In this document: in pieces, positions 10,731-41,627 of the stretch
Position numbering within the stretch: position 1 is the first letter of the stretch
How the letters are laid out: each line of letters opens with the position of its first letter
Origin: Pseudoselenomonas ruminantium
GTDB lineage: Bacteria > Bacillota > Negativicutes > Selenomonadales > Selenomonadaceae
Direction of reading: 5' to 3'
Length of the DNA stretch: 42,070 nucleotides
Assembly: GCF_900113715.1 (NCBI RefSeq)
Contig: NZ_FOQK01000027.1
Coordinates: forward strand, 1-42,070
Position numbers and translations under genes: made by a program
The notes under the pieces: model-generated
What the model saw: the letters and a program-made list of their open reading frames with translations, nothing else
The model's database searches: none
Told to the model about the DNA's origin: nothing

Positions 10731-10923
10731 GCAATCAATCGCAATTTTTGTGTGGATACATCAGCACTACGCCGTTTGCCCCTAAGATGCGTATCCGCAG
10801 ACCTGCCAGAACTGTTGCTCCCGCAACAAGCACATCGTGTCCTAAAAGCCATCCCCGCTGGGGAAGGCTGCCGATTTGCACCTGCTAACCGGCAGCCTTT
10901 ACTTTCTCCCCTAGACAGGCAAC

Positions 10924-20943: not shown

Positions 20944-20944
20944 A

Positions 20945-26033: not shown

Positions 26034-26072
26034 GTCGACATCCTCCCAAAACATAACATTACTATGCCTATC

Positions 26073-26114
26073 ATTCTATCCGATTTGCTTTTCTTTTCAT
26101 GTGATAAACATCAC
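26073..26114 (-). promoter_or_regulatory. narG promoter with Fnr/CRP-type box at -41.5
   Basis: The palindrome GTGATAAACATCAC (26101-26114, GTGA-N6-TCAC) is followed on the minus strand after 22 bp by TAGAAT (26078-26073). If the start point is 7 bp past the -10, the box centre is at -41.5, the class II activator position. The same box and spacing occur at narK and fnr. Confidence 0.8.
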
Positions 26115-26196
26115 TTGCCCTTGCTGCAAAATACACCTGGCGGCAATCTTCTCCATGCGCTGCCCCTGTAACCAAAAGCACTGACACCTGCCGTCC

Positions 26197-26232
26197 GGCT
26201 TGCTAAACTAGCTTATGCTAGTCAAACAAGCC
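26197..26232. promoter_or_regulatory. 36-bp interrupted dyad before the diguanylate cyclase gene
   Basis: GGCTTG-N5-CTAGC-TTAT-GCTAG-N5-CAAGCC: two nested perfect inverted repeats about 50 bp before the cyclase start. It may be an operator or a 5' leader hairpin; no T run follows, so it is not a terminator. Confidence 0.5.
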
Positions 26233-26281
26233 GCAATCCCCCAACTTTCTCTGTGTATCCGCAACCGAAGGGAGCATATCT

Positions 26282-27193
26282 ATGGAATTAGATGAAGCGC
26301 TGGCTGATTTCCTCGAGCAGGAGGGAATCTTCCAGAAAATGTTCGATGTCATCTGGCTCGTCGAGCAGGATGGCCACTGTGTCTGCAAATGCAACAGCGA
26401 CGGTTCCTGCTCGATAACCGATGAAACCTGCTACTCCGTCTGGGGCAAGAAGCATCGCTGTGCCAACTGCGTTTCGCAGCAAGCCTATAACGAGAACCGC
26501 CAGCATGTGAAATTCGAGTACGCCAACGACCGCTATTACTTTGTCATCGCCCGCCCCGTCTGGCTGCAGGGCAAAAAATACGCCCTCGAATTCGTCATGG
26601 ATGTCACCACCCAGTTCACCCAGAACAAAGCCGGCGAAGAAAACTTCGTCATGAACCTCATCCATGAGCTCGAACGCGTATCTTCCCGCGATCCTTTCAC
26701 CGGCCTGTTCAACAAGAAGCACCTGCTGAAGGCATTGACGGCATCCCTGCAGGAAAGCCAGCAAACCACAGCGGCAGAGGACGCGCCGCTATACCTTGCC
26801 ATCTGGGACATCGATAGCTTCAAGCAGATCAACGACACCTACGGCCACGATGCCGGCGACAGGATCCTGCTCTGCGTCGCCAACACCCTGCAGCACGGCA
26901 TCCGCAAGGAAGACGGCATCACCGCACGCTTTGGCGGCGACGAATTCGCCATCCTCTTCCACAACCGCGACCTTGCCAGCTGCGAGCGCCTGCTCACGGC
27001 CATAAAAGCCGAGATTGATAGTGACATCCACAGTAGCATGGTCTGCAATGAAAAAGTCTGTTTCCGCATCTCGGTAAGCTACGGCCTTGCCGATATCCAT
27101 GGGGCCGCCACCCCCGAAGCCGCCATCCATGCAGCCGACCAGCATCTCTACACACATAAGCGCAAAGTTCATAAAAACGATAGCCGCAGTTAG
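26282..27193 (+). CDS. Diguanylate cyclase with cysteine-rich sensor domain
   Basis: The 303-residue protein joins an N-terminal PAS-like sensor (about 12-112) to a GGDEF domain (about 132-295). The active site is ARFGGDEFAIL with GGDEF at 218-222; DPFTGLFNKKHL and DIDSFKQINDTYGHDAGD are the usual flanking motifs, so c-di-GMP synthesis is expected. An RKED stretch just upstream is near the usual inhibitory-site position. The sensor has seven cysteines within 31 residues (33, 35, 37, 43, 50, 60, 63; CxCxC...C...C...CxxC). That pattern could hold an FeS cluster or zinc, or act as a redox or NO sensor. The gene is divergent from narG across a 248-bp region. Linking nitrate respiration to c-di-GMP is inference. 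No transmembrane segment is seen, so it is likely cytoplasmic. Confidence 0.9.
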   Translation: MELDEALADFLEQEGIFQKMFDVIWLVEQDGHCVCKCNSDGSCSITDETCYSVWGKKHRCANCVSQQAYNENRQHVKFEYANDRYYFVIARPVWLQGKKYALEFVMDVTTQFTQNKAGEENFVMNLIHELERVSSRDPFTGLFNKKHLLKALTASLQESQQTTAAEDAPLYLAIWDIDSFKQINDTYGHDAGDRILLCVANTLQHGIRKEDGITARFGGDEFAILFHNRDLASCERLLTAIKAEIDSDIHSSMVCNEKVCFRISVSYGLADIHGAATPEAAIHAADQHLYTHKRKVHKNDSRS

Positions 27194-27255
27194 CAGGATT
27201 TTTTCCCTCCGCCGCGAAATAGATACATACCGAAAATACCAAAGGGGGGATTTAC

Positions 27256-27561
27256 ATGGATAGACAGATAGCCGTCTGGCTCTTGCAGCGCGGCTATGCC
27301 GACGACCTTGAGCAGGGCATACGCTTTGCAGAGGCTCTTGGTAAAAACGAATGTACCGACGAAATGCTGGATACTCTTGGTCATAACATCGATGTCTTCA
27401 TGACGGTAGGCGGTCCAGTCACCGCTGAAAACCTCCTACCTTTTATGCAGGATAAATACAACATGGCCACCAAGCTCATCAAGTTCTGGAATGAGAATCC
27501 CAAAGACACCAACGCCATCTTCTTTTTCAACGAATGCCGCAAACAGGGAATCGAAGTATGA
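27256..27561 (+). CDS. Small protein of unknown function
   Basis: A 101-residue soluble protein that I do not recognise. It seems mostly helical (MDRQIAVWLLQRGYADDLEQGIRFAEALG at the start, then TAENLLPFMQDKYNMATKLIKFWNENP), with two cysteines and no signal peptide. GGGGGG lies at proper distance before the ATG, and a 12-bp-stem terminator follows, so expression as a separate unit or at the end of the cyclase unit (62 bp gap) is likely. Nothing visible gives a function. Confidence 0.75.
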   Translation: MDRQIAVWLLQRGYADDLEQGIRFAEALGKNECTDEMLDTLGHNIDVFMTVGGPVTAENLLPFMQDKYNMATKLIKFWNENPKDTNAIFFFNECRKQGIEV

Positions 27562-27566
27562 CAGCC

Positions 27567-27601
27567 AAATAGCCTCCCATGATCGGGAGGCTATTTTTCT
27601 T
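27567..27601 (+). terminator. Terminator after the small gene at 27256
   Basis: A perfect 12-bp stem (27567-27578 with 27585-27596), 6-nt loop, then T-rich tail. Confidence 0.88.
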
Positions 27602-27655
27602 ATCCGCATTGCGTTATAATGGTAGCAAAAACTCTTACGAAACGGAGCATCCACC

Positions 27656-28933
27656 ATGAATAAAAACGGTTCCACCTACCAAAGCTACGTCGAAATCCTC
27701 AAGCGCGAGCTCGTGCCAGCCATGGGCTGCACCGAGCCGATCGCCATCGCCTACTGTGCCGCCAAAGCCCGCGAAGCCCTCGGCACTGTCCCCGACCGAC
27801 TCGTCGTCACGGCCAGCGGCAACATCATCAAAAATGTCAAAAGCGTTGTCGTGCCGAACACGGATGGGCGCAGGGGCATCGAGGCCGCTGCGGCCATCGG
27901 CGTCGTGGCGGGAAATGCGCACGCCGCCCTTGAGGTCATCGCCCATGTCACGGCCGCAGACAAAGCACGTCTTGCCGGCTACCTCGACACTGCCACTATC
28001 ACCGTCGAAGCCGCAGTCTCTGAACACGTCCTCGATATCATCGTTTCAGCCAGCAAAGGCGATGATACGGCCGAAGTCCAGATTGTCAACGAACACACCA
28101 ACATCGTCAAGATAACCCGCAACGGAAAAACCCTCTTCCAAAAGGAAATCGCCGCCACGGTGGACACGGGCAAACCCGATTACGAATGCATGACCATCGA
28201 GGATATCTACGACTTTGCCATGACCTGCGATCTCGAAGACGTCCGTGCCATCCTCGACCGCCAGATTGCCTATAATACCGCCATCGCTGACGAAGGTCTC
28301 AAGAATGACTACGGTGCCAACATCGGCAAGACACTGTTGAAGGCCTTCGGCAACGACATCCACATCCGCGCCCGTGCCCGCGCGGCGGCAGGATCAGACG
28401 CCCGCATGAACGGCTGCGAGCTGCCCGTCATCATCAATTCTGGCAGCGGCAACCAGGGCATGACCGTATCCCTGCCCGTCATCGAATACGCCAAGGAAGT
28501 CGGCGCAACACAGGAACAGCTTTATCGCGCCCTGTTGCTCGCCAACCTCGTGACACTGCATGAGAAAGAAGGCATCGGCCGTCTCTCGGCCTATTGCGGT
28601 GCCGTAAGCGCTGGTGCCGGAGCCGGTGCCGGCATTGCCTGGCTCTGCGGCGGCGATTACCAGGCCGTCATCCACACCATCGTCAACGCGCTGGCCATCA
28701 CCTCCGGCATCGTCTGCGATGGTGCCAAGGCATCCTGTGCCGCCAAGATATCCGCCGCCGTCGACGCCGGCATCATGGGCTTCGAGATGTACCGCAACGG
28801 CCAGCAATTCTACGGTGGCGACGGCCTCGTACTCAAAGGCGTCGAAAACACCATCCGCAACATCAGCCGCCTCGGCCGAATCGGCATGAAGGAAACCGAC
28901 AAAGAAATCATCGATATGATGATCGGCAAATAA
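27656..28933 (+). CDS. cyuA: L-cysteine desulfidase-type protein (UPF0597/CyuA family)
   Basis: The 425-residue protein fits the UPF0597 family (E. coli YhaM, renamed CyuA), which is related to the alpha part of iron-sulfur serine dehydratases and breaks L-cysteine to pyruvate, ammonia and hydrogen sulfide. Typical features are LVPAMGCTEPIAIAYCAA (about 18-35) with Cys25 as probable cluster ligand, ASGNIIKNVKSVVVPNT, the glycine-rich GSGNQGMT block (about 262-269) and the C-terminal part with GIVCDGAKASCAAK (about 355-368). A TATAAT -10 lies at 27615-27620. It stands alone, with no transporter or Lrp-type regulator next to it. It would give ammonia and sulfide under anaerobic conditions. Confidence 0.85.
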   Translation: MNKNGSTYQSYVEILKRELVPAMGCTEPIAIAYCAAKAREALGTVPDRLVVTASGNIIKNVKSVVVPNTDGRRGIEAAAAIGVVAGNAHAALEVIAHVTAADKARLAGYLDTATITVEAAVSEHVLDIIVSASKGDDTAEVQIVNEHTNIVKITRNGKTLFQKEIAATVDTGKPDYECMTIEDIYDFAMTCDLEDVRAILDRQIAYNTAIADEGLKNDYGANIGKTLLKAFGNDIHIRARARAAAGSDARMNGCELPVIINSGSGNQGMTVSLPVIEYAKEVGATQEQLYRALLLANLVTLHEKEGIGRLSAYCGAVSAGAGAGAGIAWLCGGDYQAVIHTIVNALAITSGIVCDGAKASCAAKISAAVDAGIMGFEMYRNGQQFYGGDGLVLKGVENTIRNISRLGRIGMKETDKEIIDMMIGK

Positions 28934-28959
28934 AACATAAAACAATGTTCCCCAAAGAT

Positions 28960-29005
28960 AAAGCAGGCCCATCAGCTCGAACCTCCGAGTTGATGGGCCT
29001 GCTTT
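28960..29005. terminator. Bidirectional terminator between cyuA and a chemoreceptor gene
   Basis: A 20-bp stem (28960-28979 with 28986-29005, one G-T pair) and 6-nt loop between convergent genes. Confidence 0.8.
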
Positions 29006-29021
29006 AGTTTCCCTTACCTGT

Positions 29022-31001
29022 TCAGATGCGGAATTTCGCCGCCATATCCTGCAAATCCGAAGCCATCTGCGCCAAGGACTGGGAAGCTGCAGCAATCTCC
29101 TGCGTAGAAGCTGACTGTTCTTCCGTAGCTGCGGAGATAGATTCTGTCTGTTCCGCCGTCTTGCGGCTGACTTCATCGATACGGCTGACAGCAGCTTCGA
29201 TGTGGCCGCCGCCGGCAGATACCGTCTGCACAGCTGCATCGATTTTCGCCATATGCTCCTTGATGGCCGTGACCCGCTGCATGATTTTGCCAAACTCCTC
29301 GCCTACGGCGCGGATAGCCTCGGCACCGTTCTTCACCTCATCGGTACCAGACTGCATCGTACTCACAGCTTCGCTGGTACCGTTTTGAACGGCACCTATG
29401 CGCTGGCGGATTTCCTCCGTTGCCAGCTGCGATTGCTCCGCCAGCTTGCGGACTTCATCAGCAACGACCGAGAATCCGCGTCCCTGCTCGCCAGCACGAG
29501 CCGCCTCAATAGCCGCATTGAGTGCCAAGAGGTTTGTCTGCTCGGCAATCCCCGAAATCGTATCGATGATTACACCGATTTCCTGGGAATTCCTGCCCAG
29601 ATTGGCCACGACCTCAGCCGATTCGCCTACACTGGACTCGATGCCAGCCATGCGTTTTACTGCCTGTTCCATAAGTTTCTGTCCCTGCGCAGCTGCATCA
29701 GCCGCTGCGACTGTCATTTCTGTTATCTGCTGGACCTTTTCAGCCACGCCGTTAAGTTCAGCCACTACCTCCTGGACATTATGATTGGCTTCATCGACAT
29801 GTCCAGTCTGTGCCGACATGCCGGCAGCGACCTCAGATACCGTCTGCGCTACATTTGTCGATGCCTCAGCCGACTGCTGGGCACTGGCTGTCAGCTCCTC
29901 ACTGGAAGCTGCTACCTGCTCTGACGTTGCACTCATCTGGGTGATAAGCTTCTTGATATGCCCCTTCATGACATTAAACCCACGTCCCAGATCACCGAGC
30001 TCATCGGCTGACAGATTCGCAAGATCTGCTCCCGTAAGATTGCCCTCGGCAAGCTCAGCGGCATGATCCTTGAGTTCCAGGATACGGCGGGTCATACCAG
30101 TAGCAAATTGCAGGCATGCCCAAACGATGAGCAGGATTCCGGCCACGGTCAGCAATCCATACGTCCATTTGAGTGTCGTAAGCTGTCCATAGATTACGTC
30201 TTCTGGTACGAGGATGCCGGCAATCCAATGCGTACTTGGAATCGTCGCATAGCCAAGTACCATTTCCTTGCCATCTTTTTCTACTTTGGCAAAGCCTGCA
30301 GCCTGCTGCGTCATGCGTTCGTATTCCTGCTGAAAGCCTGGCAGGTCCGCTGCATTCTTATTCAGTGCCTCCGAATCCTCCGTGGCGATGACGTTGCCGT
30401 TATTGTCCAGAATATAGCCCGTTCCCTCGCCCTGATATTTGAGTTCCTTTACTACGTCGCTCAGAACATCGAGGAAAATATCCTCACATATCGCACCTCT
30501 GTACTCGCTTGATGCACTACGATAAGGAGCCGCAATAGAAACCACCAGCTTGCCGGTAATCCTATCCACATAAGTATCCATAAACTCAACCTGTCCCGAG
30601 GCCTTCGGCAGTTTATAGAAACGCATCGTCACCGGATTAAGTTTTGGTGCCAGATTGCCCGCACGATAGCCGACAATCGTGCCATCGCTGTTACCCACGA
30701 TAAGATCCGAAACTGCATTGACATCCTCACCTGCAACTGCCAGCAGGGAGCGCAGCTGTTCCGGCGATTTCGTGCCATCATCCTGTTTGGCCATAAGGTC
30801 TGCGGCCGATACTGCCACCTGTTTCTTGGCCGCCAGCCAGCCATCCAGCTTATTGGCGGTTCCCTGCATCGTATCTGTGATTTCCCGCTCTACGCTGCTG
30901 CTTAAATGTGTGCTAGCCAGATAGTATCCCACACCTGATACAATCGCCATAATGACACCGGCCACACCAGCCAATGCAAAGAATTTTTGTCTAATACCCA
31001 T
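29022..31001 (-). CDS. Methyl-accepting chemotaxis protein with dCache-type sensor
   Basis: The 659-residue receptor has a first membrane segment (about 8-28), a periplasmic part of about 250 residues with the double-Cache pattern ([31 protein letters not shown], then [22 protein letters not shown] and [13 protein letters not shown]), a second membrane segment (about 275-297), a HAMP linker and the signalling domain. The hairpin tip [25 protein letters not shown] is present and intact. dCache domains usually bind amino acids or other small ligands directly. The start at 31001 follows AAGGAGG. It has its own promoter. No CheR-docking pentapeptide is seen at the C-terminus. Confidence 0.93.
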
Positions 31002-31032
31002 ATCCTTACCTCCTTGAGTTATTACCATTTTT

Positions 31033-31061
31033 ATTTTATTCTAAAAAAATCTCTAATTCAA
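31033..31061 (-). promoter_or_regulatory. Promoter of the dCache chemoreceptor gene
   Basis: On the minus strand TTGAAT (31061-31056), 17 bp, TAAAAT (31038-31033). Housekeeping type, not the flagellar sigma-28 type. Confidence 0.6.
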
Positions 31062-31111
31062 GGACAATTTGTAAATTTGTAACTTTTATACGGACATTTT
31101 TATCGATAAAA

Positions 31112-31148
31112 ATTGCGCAATACCAGGTCAACCCTGACATTGCGCAAT
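31112..31148 (-). terminator. Terminator of the chemoreceptor-binding protein operon
   Basis: On the minus strand a 16-bp stem (two wobble pairs) with a 5-nt loop, then a T-rich tail, about 30 bp past the binding-protein stop. Confidence 0.75.
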
Positions 31149-31178
31149 ATCAAAATTCAAAAAACTTTTTCCGCTGCT

Positions 31179-32198
31179 TTATTTCACTTCGTTCAAGTTA
31201 TCTTTATCGATAATCAGCGGCGTACAGAGATATGCCGGTACAGTAACCGCACCATTGTTGTACGATTTGACATCGTTGATATCAGGCTGCGTCCCCTCGA
31301 CGACGGCTTTTATCATACGAATCGTCTTGGCTACCAGCAGTTCTGGCGCTTTGTAGATCGTAATGGCCTGCTCATCTTTACGGATAGCATCGAGTGCCTG
31401 GCTTTCAGCATCCTGACCAGTCATCAGTGGCATCTGGCCATAGCCATTTTTCTTGAGCGCTTCGCGGATGCCGCCAGCCAGTCCGTCATTAGGGGCAAGA
31501 ATGACATCCAGCTTTACGCCCGCATCGGCTCCCTGCAGGAGCTTCTCCATGCGCGCTTCGGCGCCTTTGGCCTCCCAGCCTTTGATTGCTACCTGCTCAA
31601 AACTGGTCTGCCGCGACGGGATGACAAGCTGCCCCTTGTCGATATACGGTTTCAGGACATCCATCGCCCCAGCGAAGAATACATGGGCATTGTTGTCAGC
31701 CGGATCGCCGGCAAAGACCTCCATCTGAAAAGGTCCTGCCCCACCTTTCAGATTCAGTTTGGCTTCGATATATTCGCCCATCGCCTGGCCAACGGCAGCA
31801 TTATCAAAGGATGCGTAGTACGAAACGGCATCAGAGTTCATGACCAGACGATCGTAGGCGATGACCGGTATCTTTTTCTCCTTGGCAGCGTTCAATACTT
31901 CCTGCAAGGCTTCGCCATCCACAGCACCAATAACGATACATTTCGGTGCCGCCTCCAGCTGGGACTTGATCTGATCAGCCTGCTGGCTGGCTGTATCCGC
32001 AAATTGCAGGTCAACGGTATAGCCTTCTTTTTCCAGGCTTTCCTTGATCGTCTGGCCATTTTTCTGCCAGCTTGGCGACGAATTGGCAAATGCCACCGCC
32101 ACTTTTTTATTGTTATCCGCATCACTGCCACAACCACCGAGCACCAAGGCACTAAGCCCCAAGGCTGCCAGACAGAACAGCGTAATGATTTTCTTCAT
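31179..32198 (-). CDS. Sugar-binding lipoprotein (Peripla_BP_4, ChvE/xylose-type)
   Basis: The 339-residue lipoprotein has a signal ending LVLGGC (Cys23) and a type I periplasmic binding fold: KKVAVAFANSSPSWQKNGQTI at the start, KCIVIGAVDGEALQEVLNAAKEKKIPVIAYDRLV (about 86-119) and the hinge-region DVILAPNDGLAGGI (about 238-251). Asp-Arg and Asn-Asp positions that bind pyranoses in this family are kept. The closest-looking families are ChvE and xylose or multiple sugar-binding proteins. It lies 12 bp after a chemoreceptor gene, with GGAGG before its start, and no ABC permease or ATPase gene is near. A role as a dedicated chemotaxis ligand carrier is likely but is inference. Confidence 0.88.
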   Translation of the reverse strand: MKKIITLFCLAALGLSALVLGGCGSDADNNKKVAVAFANSSPSWQKNGQTIKESLEKEGYTVDLQFADTASQQADQIKSQLEAAPKCIVIGAVDGEALQEVLNAAKEKKIPVIAYDRLVMNSDAVSYYASFDNAAVGQAMGEYIEAKLNLKGGAGPFQMEVFAGDPADNNAHVFFAGAMDVLKPYIDKGQLVIPSRQTSFEQVAIKGWEAKGAEARMEKLLQGADAGVKLDVILAPNDGLAGGIREALKKNGYGQMPLMTGQDAESQALDAIRKDEQAITIYKAPELLVAKTIRMIKAVVEGTQPDINDVKSYNNGAVTVPAYLCTPLIIDKDNLNEVK

Positions 32199-32210
32199 CC
32201 TAAGGCCTCC

Positions 32211-33908
32211 TCAAATCTTGAACTTCGCCGCGGAATCGGAAAGTTCCTCCGCGAGGCTTGCCAGATTGCGGCTGGCATTTGCCACTTCATCCATAGCCGC
32301 TGACTGCTCCTCTGTCGCTGCCGATACCGACTGCGTCTCCGAAGCCACATCAAGGCCTGATTTGTTGATGCCTTCCATCACTCCGACTAAAGTCTCCGCC
32401 TTCGCCGCAGACTTTGCCGCTTCGCTAAGGATAGCGTCGGCATGCCGGGTAAGATCGGTCACAGCCGCTGCAATGTTTTCAAAGGCACTGCCTGCCTGTG
32501 ATACGACAGTACGGCCACTCTGCACATCTTCCGTCCCCTTCTGCATGCGCTGGACAGCCTGCTCCGTATCCTGCTGGATAGTCGTAATCAGCTCTGCTAT
32601 CTTGCGCGCTGCCGTATTCGACTCTTCGGCCAGCTTGCGGACTTCATCAGCGACTACAGCAAAGCCGCGTCCATATTCACCGGCACGGGCGGCCTCGATA
32701 GCGGCATTCAGCGATAACAGATTCGTCTGCTCGGCAATCCCGGAAATCGTGCTCGATATCTGCCCGATTTCCTCCGACCGCTCCGCCAATTTCTTGATGA
32801 CCTGCGCCGAATCCATAACCGAATCTGCAATTTCCGCCATCTGCTCTACGGCACCAGCAATGGCTGCCTTGCCGTCCCCAGCGATGACTTCGACATTATG
32901 CGCAGCATCGACCGAAGCCGACGCCTTACCTTGAAAGCCATGCAGGCTTGCAGACATTTCCTGGATATCCGTGAGCGATGCACTTACGGCCTCACCCTGC
33001 TGGCTGGTATTCCCGGCCACATTGGTAATCGATACAGCTACCTGCTGCGTTGCCTGTGCCGATTGGCTGGCATTTTCTGTCAGCTGCGTCGCAAAAGTCG
33101 ACACTTCCTCCGACGTCTGCTGGATGTGCTTGATGAGTTCCCGCAGATTCTTTATGGTGTCACCATAAGCCACCGTGAGCTCCCCAAACTCATCCTGCGT
33201 CTGCGGGACAGCCTCAACCTTAAGGTTGCCAGCGGCCACTTCCCGCGATACATCCATGAGATAACGGATTGATGTCATGATTGCCGAACTCAGATAGAAT
33301 GCCATAGCACCAGCCAATAACACAACGAGAGCAATGCAGACAATCAACGTCCATTTCGTTCTTTCATACTGCGCCGAAGCCGCAGCACTTTCCTTATGGA
33401 TGAAATCCTTGCTGCTGTCAACGACATGGCTGAGCTTTGCCGTCATTTCAGCATATTGGCTGCTGGACTTATCCAGCAGCTTGATTGCCTCGGCATTTTT
33501 ACCATCCTTGGACAGCTTGATGATCTCACGGGTATTTTTCTTATAGCTTTCCCAGATGCTGCGCATTGACTCGAAGTCTTCCCGGACTTCTGGCGCCACG
33601 GATGGTTCCACCTTATCGAAAGCAATATCCAGCTGATCTGCACGTTTCAGCGTTTCCTGGGCCGCATGAATGCGATTAGGAAGCGTCGTCGCCGTAGCTA
33701 CGGCATACTCGCCCTGCCGATAATCTGATAGCGTATGACTGCTTTCCACACCAGCCATAACGCTTGCCAAATGCTCCGTCGCAATGCGAAGCGCTCCTTC
33801 ATTGATACTGTTCAGGCTATAGCCTGTATACAGGCCATTGGCAGCAAAAATAAAAATAAGCGCCCCAAAAACCATAAACAGTTTCTGCCGAATTGTTATC
33901 CGATCCAC
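32211..33908 (-). CDS. Methyl-accepting chemotaxis protein with four-helix-bundle sensor
   Basis: The roughly 565-residue receptor has membrane segments at about 9-30 and 190-215, and a periplasmic part of about 155 residues, mostly helical, like 4HB_MCP or Tar-type sensors. Then come a HAMP linker and a signalling domain with [25 protein letters not shown] at the tip. Receptors of this build can sense sugars through binding proteins. The GTG at 33908 is chosen as start because AGGGGGAAAG lies before it; earlier ATGs fall in or before the TATAAT promoter. It is the first gene of an operon with the binding protein at 31179. Confidence 0.9.
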
Positions 33909-33940
33909 TAAAACTTTCCCCCTTTTGTATTGAACAAAAT

Positions 33941-33946
33941 TATTAT
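33941..33946 (-). promoter_or_regulatory. -10 element before the chemoreceptor gene at 32211
   Basis: A perfect TATAAT on the minus strand, about 33 bp before the GTG start. It lies directly beside the 20-bp tandem repeat, so the repeat supplies the -35 region. No clear -35 is seen. Confidence 0.5.
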
Positions 33947-33948
33947 AC

Positions 33949-33999
33949 CATAAAAAATACTTCGCAAGCATAAAAAATACTTCGCAAGCATAAAAAATA
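33949..33999. repeat. 20-bp tandem repeat duplicating a terminator arm
   Basis: Two perfect tandem copies of a 20-bp unit (33949-33968, 33969-33988) and an 11-bp start of a third. On the minus strand each unit contains the descending arm TGCTTGCGAAG and T tract of the terminator at 33989-34016. Confidence 0.9.
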
Positions 34000-34016
34000 A
34001 TTTCTGCTTGCGAAGC
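33958..34016 (-). terminator. Terminator with duplicated descending arm
   Basis: On the minus strand GCTTCGCAAGCA (near 34016-34004) can pair with TGCTTGCGAAG at about 33990-33980 or with the second copy at about 33970-33960; each copy is followed by a T-rich run. It ends the binding-protein/chemoreceptor operon at 34050-36704. Confidence 0.7.
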
Positions 34017-34049
34017 ATCTTTTTATTAGCAGTCAGCTCTGCCAATAAA

Positions 34050-35759
34050 TCAAACTTTGAATTTTTCTACCTGTTTTTTCAAGTTTTCTGCACTTTGCTG
34101 TGATACATTGATCTTTTCAAGAATCTCATTGGCAAGTTCCGCAACATCCGTTACTTTTTCGGCCACGGTCGTATTGCCCACGGCCCCCTCATGCGTTGCT
34201 TTCGCGATTTCCTCCATGGCATTGCTCATGGATTCTACAGCATCGCTAAGCTGCTGTGCCGTCGTGTTGCTCGTCTTAGCGAAACCATTGACATACTTTG
34301 CATCATCCTCATACTGGATTGCTGTTTTCTCCAGCATATCGTAATCGTTATTGACATTCGTATCCATAAAGTTCAGCAAGCTGAACGAACCATTCGAGAG
34401 ATTCTGTACCGAGCCTGTTACCTGTCCCGTAAGCGTCTGGATTTTCTCAGCCGTATCATGCGACTGCTCGGCCAGCTTGCGGACCTCATCTGCGACCACG
34501 GCAAAGCCACGCCCGTATTCGCCGGCCCTGGCCGCCTCGATAGCCGCATTGAGTGCCAAAAGATTTGTCTGCTCAGCGATATCGGTAATCTCCTGCGTCA
34601 GCATATTGATATTGTCCACGACTTTCGCCGATTCGATGGCGGTCTCCAGGGAAGATTTCGTCTCCGCATAAATACGCCGTGCCTCGCTGCTAGACTGTTC
34701 CATCGTTGCCTTCAACGTGCTGGCCCGTTCGGCAATCTCTTCTGTATAGGTTTCACTATGCTTTGCCTCTTTAGCTGTTCCATGAATCTGTTCCCGCAGC
34801 TTGTCGCTTAGATGCTGCAGATTTTCCGTCGAAGCTGCCGTCTCTTCCATACCCGCTGCCATTTCCTCGGTAACGGCAGACATATCCTGCGCATTGCCAT
34901 TAAGGCCATTGACCAGCTGCTGTACCTCTGTCACCATGGTCACACTGCTTTCCGTCTCTGCACGGACATCTTTCAACACACCGCGCAACGACTGCTGCAT
35001 CTTGGAAAGCGCCTGTACCACCATGCCGACCTCATCCTGCCGTCCCAGCAGTGCGGATGGAATCTCCTGCGTCAAATCGCCAGCGGCCACAACATTCAGC
35101 CGTGCCACTGCATCATGCAGCGGAGCTGCAATGCTGCGGGCAATATAAACAGCCACACCAATGCCCAGCATAAAGCCCAGCACGATAATCGCAGCAAAAA
35201 TCTTGATGGTACGCGCATAACTATCGCTGAACGTTTCAAACAGCTGCTTGCTCTGGGCTACATTATCCGGCGTCAGCACCGAAAGATTGGCAGCAATAAC
35301 CTTTGTCGCACCAAGATTCTCCATGATCTTGACCTTATCTTCAAGACTATTGCCCATCGTCTCGACAGCTTTTACCTTGCTTTCAGCTGTATCCAGATTC
35401 TGGCCAAGCTCCTGCAGCGCCTGCTGAGCCTTTTCGCTGCGGTCTATGCGTTTGAGCGCTTCGGCATCTGTGCGGATATCATGCAGCCTATCGACAACAT
35501 CCTTGAGTAGTACCTTACGGGATTCCTGCGGATAATCCTGCTGCAGCAAGTAAGCTACATCGACATCAATGGTGCGCAGCCGGTTGTTGGCGTCATTGAG
35601 GAACTGCGACGACATGATATTGTAATTATACATATCGTCCAATGCCTGCTTGGCCTTACTGTCCGAGTAAATTCCCACCGCAGCGATCAGTGCCATGATA
35701 ACCAAAAGACTTCCTGCCAACAGCAGGATTTTGATTTGTACGCTTAAATTCTTTAACAT
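34050..35759 (-). CDS. Methyl-accepting chemotaxis protein with four-helix-bundle sensor
   Basis: The 569-residue receptor has membrane segments at about 8-30 and 187-212. A helical periplasmic part of about 155 residues includes paired helices such as [29 protein letters not shown] linker ([28 protein letters not shown]) and a signalling domain follow, with [25 protein letters not shown] at the tip. It starts 15 bp after the binding-protein gene at 35775, whose stop TAA overlaps a TAAGGA ribosome binding site, so the two are one operon. The binding protein is its likely ligand carrier. Confidence 0.92.
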
Positions 35760-35774
35760 CCCGAGCCACCGTCC

Positions 35775-36704
35775 TTAGTGCAAGAATTGTCCGATATTCG
35801 CTTTGGTAATTTCTACGAAGGGAACCAGGATATCCTCTGGCTGCTTATTCCCCTGGCGCACAGCCTGGATAAGCGCAAAAGCTCCCTCTCCCTGTCCCTC
35901 AGCATCCTGCTTGACAGTCTGGCTCATCGTACCATCACTTACGGCCTTTAAAGCTGCATCTGTCGCATCGACACCGCTTACCAGCACACCTTCCAGCCGG
36001 CCGGCATCTCGCAATGCCCGGATTGCCCCCAAGGCCATATCATCGTTAGCTCCTACCACACCATCAATCTGTGGGAATAGCTTGAGCCACAGTGACATCT
36101 GCCGCAAAGCAACCGCCTCGTTCCAGGAACAATCAGCCGAGGCCAGCAGCTGGATATCCGGACGTTTATCCAGGCAGGCCTCCTTGAATCCTTCCCAGCG
36201 TTTCTTAGCACCGCTCTGGGTCATCTCGCCATTCATATAGACAATCTTTGCCCCCTGCGGCAGATTTTTGGCCATAAACTCGCCCTGCATGCGTCCTGCC
36301 TCACGGTCATCCGATACCGATGAGACGAATTTACCCCCGCTGATATCACGGTTGATGCGGATGATCGGAATCCCCGCCGCATTGGCTTTCTCAATCTCTG
36401 GAATAACTGCCTCGCCATCCACAGCCGCCAACACAATCGCTGAGGCCTTAGCATCAATGGCCTGCTTGATTTGGTCATGCTGCACATTTGCATCGCCCTT
36501 GGCATCCAGGACCTCCGTCTCGATACCAGCCGCCTGCAGCCGGTTCACGATAGCCCGTTTCAAATCCCCCTGGAATCCTGCGTCAGCATTGTCGTGCAAA
36601 AGGCAATATACCTTTCCCGAACCAGTATCCGAACTGCCGCATCCAGCGACTATCATCGCTGCGATTACGAGCAGTATCGGCAAAATTCTCTTCATTTGCT
36701 TCAC
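35775..36704 (-). CDS. Sugar-binding lipoprotein (Peripla_BP_4, ribose/allose-type)
   Basis: The roughly 309-residue lipoprotein has a signal ending MIVAGC and the type I binding fold: KVYCLLHDNADAGFQGDLKRAI, SAIVLAAVDGEAVIPEIEKANAAGIPIIRINRDI and DGVVGANDDMALGAIRALRDAG. Arg-Asn-Arg-Asp and Asn-Asp-Asp residues stand where sugars are bound in RbsB-like proteins. The start is uncertain: GTG at 36704 has GGGAG about 10 bases before; GTG at 36713 and ATG at 36695 are possible too. No permease or ATPase gene is near; the next gene is a chemoreceptor. It is a full-length relative of the fragment at 7993-8196. Confidence 0.85.
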   Translation of the reverse strand: MKQMKRILPILLVIAAMIVAGCGSSDTGSGKVYCLLHDNADAGFQGDLKRAIVNRLQAAGIETEVLDAKGDANVQHDQIKQAIDAKASAIVLAAVDGEAVIPEIEKANAAGIPIIRINRDISGGKFVSSVSDDREAGRMQGEFMAKNLPQGAKIVYMNGEMTQSGAKKRWEGFKEACLDKRPDIQLLASADCSWNEAVALRQMSLWLKLFPQIDGVVGANDDMALGAIRALRDAGRLEGVLVSGVDATDAALKAVSDGTMSQTVKQDAEGQGEGAFALIQAVRQGNKQPEDILVPFVEITKANIGQFLH

Positions 36705-36843
36705 ATTTACCACTCTCCCATTCTTATCATTCTTACATCTCTAACTGTGCTCGTACCCACAGTCTTGATTTATTTATTCGATAACATTGGTGAAATTCCT
36801 TTAATATATTGCTTTTTTTGAAAAATTTTTATTTCCAATAAAA

Positions 36844-36869
36844 AAAACACCTCGTTTTCGAGGTGTTTT
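36844..36869 (-). terminator. Terminator of fnr
   Basis: On the minus strand an 11-bp stem (36869-36859 with 36854-36844), 4-nt loop, then a run of T, 20 bp past the stop codon. Confidence 0.85.
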
Positions 36870-36889
36870 GCCTTAAATATTCCTATATT

Positions 36890-37564
36890 TCATTCAATAT
36901 TGCATACTTCCCGGCCACAATTCTCGCATTGAATGGACTGCTTGAGATATCCGATATCCTTGATAAAAATCAAATGCCCACGGTACTCAATGACACCAGC
37001 TTTACGCAATTCACTGAGCATACGGTTAAGGCTTTCACGCGCCGTCGCTGAGTAGTTTGCCAATTCCTGATTGGTCAGCGGCACTGAAATCAGGATGCCA
37101 TCATCGACTTCCTTGCCATAGCTGTTTGCCAGGCGGATCAGCGTCGAGTACAACGCTCCCTTCTTGCCGTAGAGCAGCAAATCACGGAACTTGGAGTGCT
37201 GCTTGCGCATATGCGCACTGATGATTTTCAGCAGCTGCACGGCCAGCTGCGGCCGCTTCTCAAGATATGCCTGCAGCACAGGAAACTCGATGGCATAGAC
37301 CTCAGCGGCACTCTGCGCAATCGCATTGAAGATATAGACCGGATTGTCATCATAGAGCGGCAATTCACCGATGATACTGCTGCGCGTTGCCAGCCGCAAG
37401 CTCAACACACGCCCTGATGTCGCATATTTTGTAATAAATATCTGACCAGTACGTACAATATAAAAATATTTTGCTGCATCCCCCTCATGAAAAAGATATT
37501 CGCCGTCATGAAGCATGACAACCTTGCCAGGGATTTCATAGAATTGGCGGACTAAAGCTTCCAT
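36890..37564 (-). CDS. fnr: Crp/Fnr-family regulator with C-terminal FeS cluster motif
   Basis: The 224-residue regulator has a cyclic-nucleotide-type sensor barrel (about 15-115), a dimer helix (about 115-140) and a winged helix-turn-helix (about 160-210). Its only cysteines are at 213, 216 and 221 (CENCGREVC). CxxCx4C at the C-terminus is the arrangement that, with an aspartate, holds the 4Fe-4S cluster in Bacillus subtilis Fnr; E. coli FNR has its cysteines near the N-terminus. The recognition helix TARESLNR contains RExxxR as in CRP, which predicts GTGA half-sites, and such boxes are found upstream of this gene, narK, narG and nrfH. It is divergent from narK. An oxygen-labile activator of nitrate ammonification is the natural reading. 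Confidence 0.88.
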   Translation of the reverse strand: MEALVRQFYEIPGKVVMLHDGEYLFHEGDAAKYFYIVRTGQIFITKYATSGRVLSLRLATRSSIIGELPLYDDNPVYIFNAIAQSAAEVYAIEFPVLQAYLEKRPQLAVQLLKIISAHMRKQHSKFRDLLLYGKKGALYSTLIRLANSYGKEVDDGILISVPLTNQELANYSATARESLNRMLSELRKAGVIEYRGHLIFIKDIGYLKQSIQCENCGREVCNIE

Positions 37565-37595
37565 TGTATAACCTCATTTCCTCTCATCATCTTCC

Positions 37596-37637
37596 AGTCT
37601 ACTAAAAGTCATCGCAGAAAACTGTGCGATTTGTTAC
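37596..37637 (-). promoter_or_regulatory. fnr promoter with own Fnr-type box at -41.5
   Basis: The box GTGC-GATTTG-TTAC (37624-37637) is followed on the minus strand after exactly 22 bp by TAGACT (37601-37596), giving a centre at -41.5. This fits autoregulation. The half-sites each differ by one base from GTGA/TCAC. Confidence 0.6.
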
Positions 37638-37686
37638 GCACGGCGTGAGATTTGTTACTTACTTATTGATATTTTTCAATTATACT
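37624..37686 (+). promoter_or_regulatory. narK promoter with tandem Fnr-type boxes
   Basis: Boxes GTGCGATTTGTTAC (37624-37637) and GTGAGATTTGTTAC (37645-37658) are direct repeats 21 bp apart, two helix turns. The second is followed after 22 bp by TATACT (37681-37686), so their centres are at -62.5 and -41.5. This fits class I plus class II activation. Confidence 0.75.
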
Positions 37687-37752
37687 TGACGCAAAGCAAT
37701 GGCGCATTTTGCTGCCATGTACTAGTATTCTTATGGGATAGGAGATAACACT

Positions 37753-39096
37753 ATGGCTGAAAACGATGTACTGCTTGCACTCGGGAACTCCCCGAGCCGC
37801 AAGAAAATCCTCGCACACTGGGAACCAGAAAACAAACAATTCTGGAACAAGTATGGCAAGAAGATTGCCAACCAAAACCTCTACACATCGACCTGGTCAC
37901 TCGTCCTCTCCTTTGTCGTCTGGACGCTTTGGGCCACGATTGCTGCCAAGCTCAACACCGTAGGGTTCCATTTCAGCGATGACCAGATTTTCACTCTGGC
38001 TGCCCTGCCAGGTCTTATCGGCGCAACCGGCCGCCTTTTCTATACGTATCTGCCCGGACTGCTCGGCGGCAAAACCTCGACCCTTGTCACGACGGCCCTG
38101 CTGCTGCTGCCGGTCATCGGCCTTGGCAACGCCCTGCAGGACACGACGACATCCTACGACACCTTCGTGCTGCTCGTCGCCTTCATCGGCATCGCCGGAG
38201 CAAATTTCTCCGCCTCGATGGCTAACATCGGCTTTTTCTTCCCCAAAGCCAATAAGGGACTGGCGCTGGGCATCAACGCGGGTGTCGGCAATCTCGGCGT
38301 CTCGCTGATCTACCTCACAGCACCGCTGCTCTTAGGCTGGAACCTGTCTGGGCTCTTCGGGCCCGGCCTGCTGACCGCTGACGGCAGCCCACTCTACTTG
38401 CAGAATGTCTGCTATTTCTGGGCCATCCCGACTGTCCTCACGCTCGTGCTCATCTGGCTGTTCATGGACAACCTGCCGCTGCCCAAGCAGAGCCCGAAAT
38501 CCATTCTTTCCATCTTCGGCAATAAGCATACTTGGCTGATGTGCTGGATCTACACCTGCGGCTTTGGCTCCTTCATCGGCTTTTCGGCAGCACTCGGCCT
38601 GCTCGTCGCCAAGGAGTTCCCCGAGGTCTCCTTCTCAATGGCGGCCTTCCTCGGCCCCTTCATCGGTGCCAGTGTCCGCCCCCTTGGCGGCTGGCTCGCC
38701 GATAAGCTAAACTGCGGTTCGCGTGTCACGCTGCTGTCACTGTTCGTCATGCTCGCCGCCAGCTTCGCCGTGCTGTTCGGCATCCAGACACATAGCTTTG
38801 CGGTCTTCTTCGGCTCATTCCTGCTGCTGTTCCTGACGACAGGCTTTGTCAACGGTGCCTCCTTCCGCATGATTCCCTATATCTTCAACAATCCGTTCCA
38901 TTCGTCACTCGTCACGGGCTTCACGGCTGCCATCGCCGCCTACGGCGCTTTCCTGATCCCGAAGATCTTCGGCTGGTCTTACGCCAGCTTCCAGAGTGTC
39001 ACGCCAGCCTTCTATATCTTGATTGCCTTCACGGTCAGCACCATCCTCATCACCTGGTATTTCTATGACCGGCAAGGCTCTGGCATCCAATGCTGA
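37753..39096 (+). CDS. narK: Nitrate/nitrite transporter of the MFS (NNP family)
   Basis: The 447-residue membrane protein has about 12 segments and the nitrate/nitrite porter signatures: GRLFYTYLPGLLGGK (about 92-106) and the glycine-rich nitrate signatures ANFSASMANIGFFFPKANKGLALGINAGVGNLG (about 150-182) and GASFRMIPYIFNN (about 369-381). The arginine in the first and the asparagines in the others line the anion path. It would bring nitrate in and exchange nitrite. GATAGGAG stands before the ATG. It has its own terminator and a Fnr-controlled promoter, divergent from fnr. Confidence 0.93.
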   Translation: MAENDVLLALGNSPSRKKILAHWEPENKQFWNKYGKKIANQNLYTSTWSLVLSFVVWTLWATIAAKLNTVGFHFSDDQIFTLAALPGLIGATGRLFYTYLPGLLGGKTSTLVTTALLLLPVIGLGNALQDTTTSYDTFVLLVAFIGIAGANFSASMANIGFFFPKANKGLALGINAGVGNLGVSLIYLTAPLLLGWNLSGLFGPGLLTADGSPLYLQNVCYFWAIPTVLTLVLIWLFMDNLPLPKQSPKSILSIFGNKHTWLMCWIYTCGFGSFIGFSAALGLLVAKEFPEVSFSMAAFLGPFIGASVRPLGGWLADKLNCGSRVTLLSLFVMLAASFAVLFGIQTHSFAVFFGSFLLLFLTTGFVNGASFRMIPYIFNNPFHSSLVTGFTAAIAAYGAFLIPKIFGWSYASFQSVTPAFYILIAFTVSTILITWYFYDRQGSGIQC

Positions 39097-39111
39097 GCAG
39101 CCGCAGCTTCA

Positions 39112-39137
39112 GCCTCCCCAGACGGGAGGCTTTTTTT
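39112..39137 (+). terminator. Terminator of narK
   Basis: A 7-bp GC-rich stem (39112-39118 with 39124-39130), 5-nt loop, then seven T. Confidence 0.88.
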
Positions 39138-39196
39138 CTGCCAGCAATACTGGTAAAATATAAACAAGAGCTATGAACTGCAAAGGAGACGATAAC

Positions 39197-39679
39197 ATGG
39201 ATCCACGTACCGGACTTACGCATTTTGACGAGGAAGGACAGGCCATCATGGTCGATGTCAGCGGCAAGCAGGAGACGAGCCGCACGGCCATCGCCACGGG
39301 CCGCATCAAGGTCAATCAGGCCGTCTATGACGCCATCGAACAAGGCACGGCCAAAAAGGGCGACGTACTGGGAGTCGCCCGCGTCGCCGGCATCATGGCT
39401 GCCAAGTCCACGAGCTCGGTCATCCCGCTTTGCCATCCGCTGCCCATTGCCAAATGCAGTGTCGACTTCACTATGCTGCCCGAAGAATGTGCCGTTGAAG
39501 CCCAGGCCACGGTCAAAGTGACGGGGCAGACCGGTGTCGAGATGGAAGCCCTGCACGCCGTAAGCGTCGCCCTGCTGACCATCTACGATATGTGCAAAGC
39601 CATCGATAAGCGCATGGAAATCCAGTACATCCACCTCGATAAAAAAACTGGTGGCAAAAGCGGCGAATTTGTACGCTGA
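39197..39679 (+). CDS. moaC: Cyclic pyranopterin monophosphate synthase
   Basis: The 160-residue MoaC catalyses the second half of the first step of molybdenum cofactor synthesis, turning the MoaA product into cyclic pyranopterin monophosphate. Its signatures are all present: [17 protein letters not shown] (about 75-91), [27 protein letters not shown] (about 112-138) with the catalytic aspartate and lysine, and KTGGKSGEF at the end. The start at 39197 follows AAAGGAG; an earlier in-frame start overlaps upstream sequence without such a site. Other moa and mog genes are not in the window. Its product is needed for NarG. Confidence 0.95.
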
Positions 39680-39696
39680 AATCTTTTATCTGCTAT

Positions 39697-39744
39697 AAAA
39701 ACAGGAGCCATGAAGGTCTCATCCTTCACGGCTCCTGTTTTTTT
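39697..39744. terminator. Bidirectional terminator between moaC and nrfA
   Basis: A stem of about 18 bp with one A-C mismatch, loop TCTCAT, with A and T runs on either side, between the convergent genes. Confidence 0.8.
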
Positions 39745-39760
39745 CAAATGACAAAATCGA

Positions 39761-41050
39761 TCATAAGCTTCCCTTGACGACGGCATTCGTCTGCGCAATG
39801 GCAGTATGTGCCTTGTCAATGGCAAGTCCCAGGACACGCATCTGCTTGTCCGGGTTATGGAAGCCCATGCTGCTCTCAGCAGCTACAAAATCCCAATACC
39901 ACTGTGCTTCGCGCAGCGTCTGACGAGCTGCGGAAAGCTGCTCATCGGTAGCACCGGCATCCATCGCCGCCTTGATGGTCTTATGGGCCTTAGCAACCGT
40001 CTGGCCTGCAATGCGCTGGAGCTTAAACGTGTTGTCACCAATCGTCTTGACGCGCTTGGTCAGCGTCTCAGCACTTTCCTGATGGCACTTCTGGCACGAC
40101 TCCTGCGGCGTAAACAGCGGATTCGTCATCCAGTGCGACGTATATTTCTGGCCATCCTTGCGCATGTACGGCATATGGCAGTCAACACAGGTAACGCCAT
40201 TCATGGCATGGATAGAATCCTGCCAGGTCTCGTAGTCCGGATGCTGGGCCTTGAGCATCGGCGTTTTGGAATCGGCATGAATCCAATCCTGCGTGAAGCC
40301 ACCAGCATGCCCATCCTGATAATACTGGTAAATCTCTTCGGCATCGAAGCCATTATCCCATGGCTCAACGACACGGCCATCTTCCTTGGCAAAATAATAC
40401 TCGTTATGGCACTGGCCGCAGACATAAGCGCGCATCTCATTGTGCGATGCCTTGCTGATATCTATGCCACGGCGGGACATTGCTTCGACAAAGCCCTGCT
40501 GATAGACGCGCAGATCCATTGTCTCGGGATCATGGCAGCTCGAGCAGCCAAACCACTCGTCATCCTTGATGGGGGCGGCAATCTCATCAAACGGCTTCGT
40601 CGCAAAATCCCAGCCACTCTCTTTGAAATATACATCGTACATATAAGAACTCTTGCAGACAATGCAGGAGCCCTTCTGCCCCGGACGGCGTTTCGACTCA
40701 AGAATATCGATGCCGGCATACGTATGGCCGCGGTCATCGTCATACTGAAGCGCAAACTTGTAGCCCTTGAAATTCTCGAGTGCCTCCGGCTGTTCCTTCA
40801 GATGATCCACCTTATCTGAACCGCCATAGCCAGTCGGTGATGGATGCATCTCATTATTCTTCATGAACGACTCGTATTCGAGTGGATAGGCATCCTTATA
40901 CCCATCCTTGGTCAATTGCTGATCTTTCGGAATCTTAGCGAGCTTTACGCTGTCATCGTTCGGTGCTGCACCGATGCGAACCACGACAAAGCCGAAGAAC
41001 GCGACGCAGACCGCTGCGATTCCTGCTAATATTTTCTGTAGCTTACTCAA
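39761..41050 (-). CDS. nrfA: Cytochrome c nitrite reductase (ammonia-forming), catalytic subunit
   Basis: The 429-residue pentaheme enzyme reduces nitrite to ammonium with six electrons outside the cytoplasmic membrane. The catalytic heme site is CIVCK (129-133), the lysine-ligated CxxCK motif typical of NrfA. Four normal hemes follow: CSSCH (169-173), CGQCH (211-215), CVDCH (288-292) and CQKCH (319-323). The N-terminal hydrophobic stretch (about 6-28) is an export signal or anchor. The start is TTG with AAAGGGGG at 7 bases, inside the end of nrfH (8-bp overlap), so the two are translationally coupled. Confidence 0.96.
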   Translation of the reverse strand: MSKLQKILAGIAAVCVAFFGFVVVRIGAAPNDDSVKLAKIPKDQQLTKDGYKDAYPLEYESFMKNNEMHPSPTGYGGSDKVDHLKEQPEALENFKGYKFALQYDDDRGHTYAGIDILESKRRPGQKGSCIVCKSSYMYDVYFKESGWDFATKPFDEIAAPIKDDEWFGCSSCHDPETMDLRVYQQGFVEAMSRRGIDISKASHNEMRAYVCGQCHNEYYFAKEDGRVVEPWDNGFDAEEIYQYYQDGHAGGFTQDWIHADSKTPMLKAQHPDYETWQDSIHAMNGVTCVDCHMPYMRKDGQKYTSHWMTNPLFTPQESCQKCHQESAETLTKRVKTIGDNTFKLQRIAGQTVAKAHKTIKAAMDAGATDEQLSAARQTLREAQWYWDFVAAESSMGFHNPDKQMRVLGLAIDKAHTAIAQTNAVVKGSL

Positions 41051-41531
41051 CTTTTATCCCCCTTTCGAGATGGTTCGCGCCATGAGCAATACTGCTATGG
41101 CATTTCATGCAGTCAGCACCGGTGTCGAGATCGACGCCAATTTGCGCATGAACATTCTTCATGGTGTTCTCATGGCAACGCAAGCAATTCGCGTTGACCG
41201 TCTTCTTGCCGTCAGCCGAAAGCTTGATATGTGCCGGATAATCCCGGAGCACCTCATGGTAGGTATCCACCATGCCGGTTCTCCCTTTCTCGATCATATA
41301 GATGGCCATGTTGTCATGGGGCAGATGGCAGTCCACACATTCGAGTTTGCTATGGGTTGACTCGGCGAAAGTCCACGCCTCTGTCTTCATGGCATGACAG
41401 GTGCCGCAAAACTCCGGACTCCCCGAAAACGACATCATAGCCGCCCCAAATCCGCAAGCCGCGACACCAATGACAAATCCTCCCGCCAAACATGCCAGCG
41501 TGTGTTTCTTAAAAAGCTGTTTGAGTTCCAC
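41043..41531 (-). CDS. nrfH: NapC/NirT-type tetraheme quinol dehydrogenase of the nitrite reductase
   Basis: The 162-residue membrane-anchored cytochrome takes electrons from menaquinol and gives them to NrfA. One N-terminal membrane segment (about 12-34) is followed by four heme sites: CGTCH (42-46), CVDCH (65-69), CLRCH (116-120) and CMKCH (141-145). CGTCHAM with a following methionine fits the unusual first heme of NrfH. The start is GTG with GAGGAGGGG before it. A Fnr-type box and a perfect TATAAT lie upstream. Confidence 0.95.
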   Translation of the reverse strand: MELKQLFKKHTLACLAGGFVIGVAACGFGAAMMSFSGSPEFCGTCHAMKTEAWTFAESTHSKLECVDCHLPHDNMAIYMIEKGRTGMVDTYHEVLRDYPAHIKLSADGKKTVNANCLRCHENTMKNVHAQIGVDLDTGADCMKCHSSIAHGANHLERGIKVE

Positions 41532-41561
41532 TTCCGCTCCCCTCCTCTCACTTCTACGCCC

Positions 41562-41598
41562 ATTATAGCATCCGTCAAAATCGTGTGATGTTGCTCAC
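41562..41598 (-). promoter_or_regulatory. nrfH promoter with Fnr-type box
   Basis: The box GTGATGTTGCTCAC (41585-41598, GTGA-N6-TCAC) is followed on the minus strand after 17 bp by TATAAT (41567-41562). Its centre is near -36.5, 5 bp closer than at narG and narK, so the mode of action may differ. Confidence 0.65.
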
Positions 41599-41627
41599 GC
41601 AACCAAATTCAGACTTTTTTCACAAAA

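Follow-up and report, generated by a model that had tools for sequence, protein, structure and literature searches.

In Bacillus subtilis, Fnr carries its cluster at the C-terminus and controls narGHJI, and narK and fnr are co-transcribed (PMC8139620). Here, we analyse fnr, narGHJI, a narK-type transporter gene and nrfHA on a contig of 42,070 bases (C36), which was taken in its entirety, is called the window below and is part of a 3.1 Mb Selenomonas genome. The host belongs to the Negativicutes, a class of diderm bacteria. The arrangement as a whole is best explained, with a probability that we put at about 75%, by a Bacillus-type Fnr that drives narGHJI, narK and its own gene and by a second factor that drives nrfHA.

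The fnr product is a two-domain protein of the CRP/FNR family, with matches to cNMP_binding and HTH_Crp_2 that are both above cut-off. An earlier note on this DNA had pointed to a CxxCx4C end and an RExxxR helix. Both are present: the C-terminal end, CENCGREVCNIE, contains Cys213, Cys216 and Cys221, and the recognition helix RESLNR occupies residues 176–181. Asp128, within RDLLL.GKK, aligns with Asp141 of a B. subtilis group protein (B. inaquosorum, L141), whose aligned ligands D141, C227, C230 and C235 carry the ligand numbers of B. subtilis Fnr (PMC3520743). Identity to the Bacillaceae Fnr proteins is 41–50%, and the closest named Fnr (99% identity) comes from a metagenome-assembled genome labelled Selenomonas ruminantium. 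In a tree of the quick kind, built from Negativicutes and Bacillaceae rows and the three paralogues of the genome after 18 redundant named rows had been dropped, and carrying a long-branch warning for Veillonella versus Bacillaceae, the 31 Negativicutes rows formed one group (Shimodaira–Hasegawa-like approximate likelihood ratio test, SH-aLRT, 100) that adjoined the Bacillaceae rows and stood apart from the paralogues. Among the NCBIfam models the protein exceeded no cut-off, the fumarate/nitrate Fnr model giving 41.2 bits against a cut-off of 228.

Two overlapping sets of organisms were compared. The scan of named genomes comprised 80 loci: 23 of the Selenomonadaceae group (two of them labelled Veillonellaceae), one of V. 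montpellierensis, eight of other Veillonella and 48 of the Bacillaceae group, which include some Anoxybacillaceae and one locus labelled Pseudomonas sp. that is probably mislabelled. The CxxCx4C end was found in all 23 Selenomonadaceae and all 48 Bacillaceae-group loci of this set as well as in 46 of 46 Selenomonadaceae loci from the genome search (window counted; L056 repeats the L016 gene). Every compared Fnr row has the RE..NR helix except L041, which reads RESLNQ. These data support the classification of the window regulator, at the level of sequence, as a Bacillus-type Fnr. A search of plasmids found no close Fnr, the best hit being an Aneurinibacillus protein of 35.8% identity without the cysteine end, and a scan of viral contigs gave no match. 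One genome holds a second, more diverged Fnr copy (L050, G167:C62) that ends in CENCPLEICSMG like the Bacillus proteins; the 330 bases before it contain no box with up to two mismatches.

The boxes and predicted promoter elements of the putative Fnr targets are as follows.

36890 to 37564, minus strand: fnr, encoding the Bacillus-type Fnr of 224 amino acids (domains, alignment, tree)
37753 to 39096, plus strand: narK-type transporter of the major facilitator superfamily (MFS), divergent from fnr (MFS_1 match)
26101 to 26114, minus strand: predicted Fnr box of narGHJI, GTGATGTTTATCAC, centre -41.5
26073 to 26078, minus strand: predicted -10 of narGHJI, TAGAAT, 22 bp from the box
37645 to 37658, plus strand: predicted Fnr box of narK, GTGAGATTTGTTAC, centre -41.5
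37681 to 37686, plus strand: predicted -10 of narK, TATACT, 22 bp from the box
37624 to 37637, minus strand: predicted Fnr box of fnr, GTAACAAATCGCAC, centre -41.5 for fnr and -62.5 for narK
37596 to 37601, minus strand: predicted -10 of fnr, TAGACT, 22 bp from the box

The centres assume transcriptional starts 7 bp past each -10. As the earlier note had stated, the boxes of narG, narK and fnr lie exactly 22 bp from their -10 elements, a spacing that is kept in relatives. The fnr box deviates from GTGA-N6-TCAC at two of eight positions and was accepted because it is conserved in relatives. For this box, which had been proposed to serve both fnr and narK, the distances of -41.5 and -62.5 hold, and the relatives back a narK-fnr region with two boxes.

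The strongest evidence for these sites comes from the conservation of the spacing. From 57 sequences upstream of fnr in Selenomonadaceae and Veillonella, thinning at a similarity of 75% left 34. For the boxes with up to one mismatch in these, hexamers resembling a -10 (TA...T, four or more of the six positions) were counted in both directions at every spacing from 10 to 40 bp. A -10 at 22 bp was present for 45 of the 72 box-directions in these fnr/narK regions, compared with a mean of 2.07 and a maximum of 6 at the other spacings. The flanks of the 48 Bacillaceae loci, used unthinned, gave 24 of 62 box-directions at 22 bp for exact boxes (at most 4 at other spacings) and 39 of 199 for boxes with up to one mismatch (at most 8). 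Thus, the 22-bp geometry is common to Bacillaceae and Negativicutes; for the -41.5 rule in B. subtilis itself, we rely on these flank counts. Box and spacing are kept across many lineages although the sequence of the spacer has diverged. The narG promoters, a table of 54 loci chosen out of 87 narG genomes, have a box with a -10 at 22 bp in 39 cases (30 of 38 with fnr and 9 of 16 without). Six of the eight fnr-containing genomes without a narG box at 22 bp are Veillonella, where fnr, at the loci looked at, sits directly before narG.

Between fnr and narK, the window and several Selenomonas relatives have a pair of boxes at a distance of 21 bp from each other, and each box has its own -10 at 22 bp. 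Of the 34 thinned regions, 10 (including three from Veillonella) have one palindrome that is flanked on either side by a -10 at 22 bp. One shared site could hardly hold two polymerases at once; thus, the doubled box may let both promoters fire together.

Upstream of nrfH the picture is different. The elements of this promoter are:

41590 to 41603, minus strand: GTTGC-N4-GCAAC palindrome, GTTGCGTGAGCAAC, centre -41.5 for nrfHA, predicted site of the second factor
41562 to 41567, minus strand: predicted -10 of nrfHA, TATAAT, 22 bp from the palindrome
41585 to 41598, minus strand: GTGAGCAACATCAC, the nrfH 'Fnr box' of the earlier note, judged a chance overlap with the palindrome

In the host genome GTTGC-N4-GCAAC occurs six times, compared with one occurrence of the reversed control, and only two of the six have a -10 at 22 bp, namely those before nrfH and before a gene on contig C9 that encodes a CRP/FNR protein of 226 amino acids with an RSALTR helix. 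A second palindrome of the window (10814–10827) has no -10 at 22 bp and is probably no promoter site. The gene for the 226-aa protein was found in 110 of 189 genomes of the family, beside nrfHA in several. It is present in 89 of 114 nrfH genomes, and seven genomes have the factor without nrfH, a count that omits 14 of the 110 genomes with only distant matches. We examined 50 nrfH loci, of which L211 and L213 could not be parsed and L228, without palindrome, has shorter upstream DNA. Where the genome has the second factor, 32 of 37 parsed nrfH promoters carry the palindrome (up to one mismatch) at 22 bp from the -10; where it does not, 1 of 11 does. The promoters of the factor's own gene show the same order of GTTGC-N4-GCAAC, 22 bp and TATAAT in 24 of 30 cases. 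Because of the co-occurrence and the same site before the factor's own gene, nrfHA was assigned to this factor; nrfHA thus appears to lie outside the Fnr circuit and is predicted to be controlled by the 226-aa protein. The recognition helices agree with this assignment. A published helix code links R180 to G3 and E181 to A6 of the DNA site (PMC1274295). By our own alignment of the sites, the code fits, RE going with GTGA and RS with GTTGC, in which the G is kept and the A is lost.

Several observations weigh against our explanation. A scan of the host genome returned 22 exact palindromes, compared with 15 for the reversed control, and no enrichment of the box combined with a -10 at 22 bp (19 with up to one mismatch, control 20). 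For a similar combination of box, 22 bp and TATNNT (up to one mismatch, forward and reverse) in five relatives, the count exceeded the control in three Selenomonadaceae, namely genome G031 (12 versus 1), S. ruminantium HD4 (13 versus 5) and Mitsuokella multacida (7 versus 3) and was not enriched in two Veillonella genomes (12 versus 11 and 10 versus 16). With regard to the second factor, the 6 of 30 promoters of its own gene without the palindrome all belong to genus g11, two of them having a site with two mismatches at 22 bp, and three nrfH promoters checked in this genus, which possesses the factor, also have no palindrome. Moreover, nrfH accompanies fnr as well, if less strongly (45 of 52 fnr genomes). 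At narG, box and spacing were found in 9 of the 16 sampled genomes in which no Fnr orthologue passed the cut-offs used. Three of these box-containing genomes are 80–88% complete; completeness reaches 99% in G161 and in four members of family f25 (genera g67 and g91), to which Veillonella also belongs. When ten genomes without fnr were searched loosely, G057 turned out to hold an Fnr remnant; five others yielded distant paralogues and the remaining four no match. Furthermore, in G279 and G333 a CRP/FNR protein with an RSALTR helix takes the fnr slot between narK and narG (L355, 5725–6402, and L356, 4669–5418, respectively), and the boxes there are still GTGA-N6-TCAC at 22 bp, a combination that the helix-code argument leaves unexplained. 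Finally, the host genome encodes a paralogue (L262, 2350–3021, G000:C28) whose REVVSR helix has the same two specificity residues and which could read the same boxes. In the genomes without fnr, the regulator might have been replaced with the site kept, or the site might have another reader.

The second of these ideas leads to the most serious competitor, in which the main reader of the boxes at narG, narK and fnr is a different member of the CRP/FNR family, such as the REVVSR paralogue, an HcpR1-like factor or a CRP, and Fnr only overlaps with it. The persistence of the narG box without fnr and the second RE-type helix in the host speak for such a reader, as does the binding of Desulfovibrio HcpR1 to TGTGA-N6-TCACA (PMC5701242). 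We nevertheless regard it as unlikely, since fnr is nearly confined to narG genomes (narG being present in 63 of 64 fnr-containing genomes in a draw of 350 genomes from the class), is transcribed away from narK and, at the Veillonella loci that were inspected, is also the gene immediately before narG. In addition, the 300 bases before the REVVSR paralogue contain no GTGA-N6-TCAC with zero or one mismatch, and the two sites with two mismatches have no -10. The remnant in G057 (L325, at about 1501–1662) still shows the C-terminus of Fnr in an open frame of 54 codons, and narG of this genome keeps its box.

According to the earlier note, all four boxes, including the one at nrfH, are Fnr sites. 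Indeed, GTGAGCAACATCAC is an exact GTGA-N6-TCAC, which is shared by four close relatives and, with a mismatch, by one more. It lies, however, 17 bp and not 22 bp from TATAAT, and it is seen only where the freely varying N4 of the GTTGC palindrome happens to read GTGA. None of the 48 parsed nrfH promoters has a GTGA box with a -10 at 18–26 bp. What is conserved at nrfH, in genomes with and without fnr, is GTTGC-N4-GCAAC, the palindrome tied to the other CRP/FNR protein. The inclusion of nrfH among the Fnr sites was therefore given up, and we consider it improbable that all four boxes belong to Fnr.

Motif counts near expectation were rejected as evidence on their own. In the window, GTGA-N6-TCAC with up to one mismatch matched 18 times (13.1 expected; reached by 14 of 100 shuffles), the exact form twice (0.43 expected; 9 of 100 shuffles) and the box with TANNNT at 22 bp and up to two mismatches 12 times (6.18 expected; 3 of 100 shuffles). 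This weak enrichment and the missing enrichment of the combined pattern in the host genome lend some support to the idea that the boxes are functionless chance matches. Many lineages, however, retain the box at exactly this spacing although their spacer sequences have diverged, which already contradicts the idea and leaves it hardly any probability. It is this conservation, and not the motif counts, that led us to judge the sites of narG, narK and fnr as real.

Eight other exact palindromes of the host genome (L260–L267) have no -10 at 22 bp and were rejected. An exact box followed at 22 bp by TATACT was noted before a chemoreceptor-like gene with a HAMP domain and a PilJ-type N-terminus below threshold (L151/L268, G000:C7:16292), the convincing additional candidate for an Fnr target. 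Weaker candidates are L155 and L162, which were named, from reading the sequence, as thioesterase-like and NADH dehydrogenase-like, respectively.

Coming back to Fnr and a second factor as the two regulators, the mechanism would be as follows. Without oxygen, Fnr would carry a [4Fe-4S] cluster on Cys213, Cys216, Cys221 and Asp128, as judged from the Bacillus proteins, and its RESLNR helix would bind palindromes resembling GTGA-N6-TCAC. Given the observed geometry, it would probably act as a class II activator from -41.5 of narGHJI, narK and its own gene, with each of the two boxes between fnr and narK serving one promoter. The 226-aa factor, whose site, spacing and co-occurrence are described above, would read GTTGC-N4-GCAAC at -41.5 of nrfHA and of its own gene. 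The reduction of nitrate and that of nitrite would thus seem to be run by parallel class II circuits, one for each step. If this is true, the two steps could be induced to different extents, and this offers a testable explanation of why nitrite builds up. S. ruminantium has been investigated for its reduction of nitrate and nitrite in the rumen (PMC12998184), and nitrate feeding has been studied against methane (PMC4751266). In the literature searched, from which subscription journals were mostly absent, we found neither a description of Fnr from Selenomonas or Veillonella nor one of the GTTGC palindrome; the available text of PMC12285233 does not mention Negativicutes, Selenomonas or HcpR, and that of PMC12915319 does not mention GTTGC.

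In Veillonella, the regulator has changed while the promoter layout has been conserved. The Fnr orthologues of this genus are 50–51% identical to the window protein and retain the RES.NR helix, and none of them has the CxxCx4C end, all three of its cysteines being absent (0 of 11 genome-search and 0 of 8 named loci, L058–L066, L068, L069 and L095–L102, which are overlapping sets that exclude V. montpellierensis). One of the 11, from an organism named V. caviae in the other set, is cysteine-free throughout. At L095, L096 and L100, fnr lies directly before narG and divergent from narK, with a one-mismatch box and TATAAT at 22 bp. The ratio of non-synonymous to synonymous substitution rates (dN/dS) of fnr could be computed for 8 of 21 pairs and was 0.02–0.12 in these, which is a rough guide since the synonymous distance exceeded 1.3 in seven of the eight and was saturated in the other 13; the gene appears to be under purifying selection. 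Unlike other Veillonella, V. montpellierensis (L091 and L067, two loci taken to be from one organism) has a Selenomonas-like Fnr of 72% identity with all three cysteines at both loci. We lean, by a small degree, towards the view that Veillonella Fnr descends from an oxygen sensor, has lost its cluster and, blind to oxygen and activating its own gene, drives nitrate reduction in an oral nitrate reducer. Nitrate reductase genes have been reported in Veillonella (PMC12998184), and the literature listings searched contained no paper on a nar regulator of this genus. The cysteine-free Fnr is a concrete candidate for it and would allow a clean test of what the cluster contributes. If true, the group, with its separate palindromes for nar and nrf, would present a natural series in which regulators that carry a cluster, have none or have been displaced act on the same conserved layout of promoters.

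The remaining genes of the two reductase operons and their neighbours in the window are:

22353 to 26054, minus strand: narG, nitrate reductase alpha subunit (family search)
20945 to 22363, minus strand: narH, nitrate reductase beta subunit (family search)
20413 to 21831, minus strand: frame that holds narJ between narH and narI, named from its position
19751 to 20416, minus strand: narI, nitrate reductase gamma subunit (family search)
39173 onwards, plus strand: moaC
41043 to 41531, minus strand: nrfH, NapC/NirT-type cytochrome (family search)
39761 to 41050, minus strand: nrfA, cytochrome c552 nitrite reductase (family search)

The narGHJI genes run from 26054 down to 19751. The name narK was given from position and similarity, with no family model behind it; a comparable divergent transporter gene is present at the Negativicutes fnr loci looked at. 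Divergent from narG, a diguanylate cyclase (GGDEF) gene with several N-terminal cysteines is located at 26282–27193, and at the same place in G161 (L353) there is a gene with the similar stretch MELDKALEDLL.

Compared with known systems, the proposed activation resembles that by Escherichia coli FNR, which acts anaerobically as a class II activator from -41.5. Unlike the window Fnr, the E. coli protein has N-terminal cysteines and TTGAT-N4-ATCAA sites. The likeness to HcpR1 lies in its TGTGA-N6-TCACA site, and predicted HcpR regulons can include nrfHA and nar (PMC1274295, PMC5701242). As for the RSALTR factor, changes at position 181 accompany altered motifs in HcpR, a feature that is shared with other CRP/FNR groups and is not decisive. 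HcpR1 and HcpR2 differ from the window Fnr by being without FNR-type cysteines, and the common motif of HcpR2, GTAACnnnnGTTAC and not GTTGCnnnnGCAAC, differs from the site of the RSALTR factor. A B. subtilis fnr orthologue from beyond the Bacilli has also been described, Crp2 of Thermoanaerobacter tengcongensis (PMC1274295), which has a CRP-like site and is linked there to hcp and not to narGHJI, narK or its own gene. Closest are the Fnr proteins of B. subtilis and B. cereus (PMC8139620, PMC3520743), with which the window regulator shares the group in the tree, the CxxCx4C end, the aligned Asp and the RE..NR helix, as well as, judged by the Bacillaceae flanks, the GTGA-N6-TCAC box 22 bp from the -10 and, as predicted here, the control of narGHJI. 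In contrast to B. subtilis, fnr and narK of the window are not co-transcribed but diverge around two tandem boxes, and fnr has a box of its own. The co-transcription of narK and fnr is an arrangement of B. subtilis and not a property of the protein.

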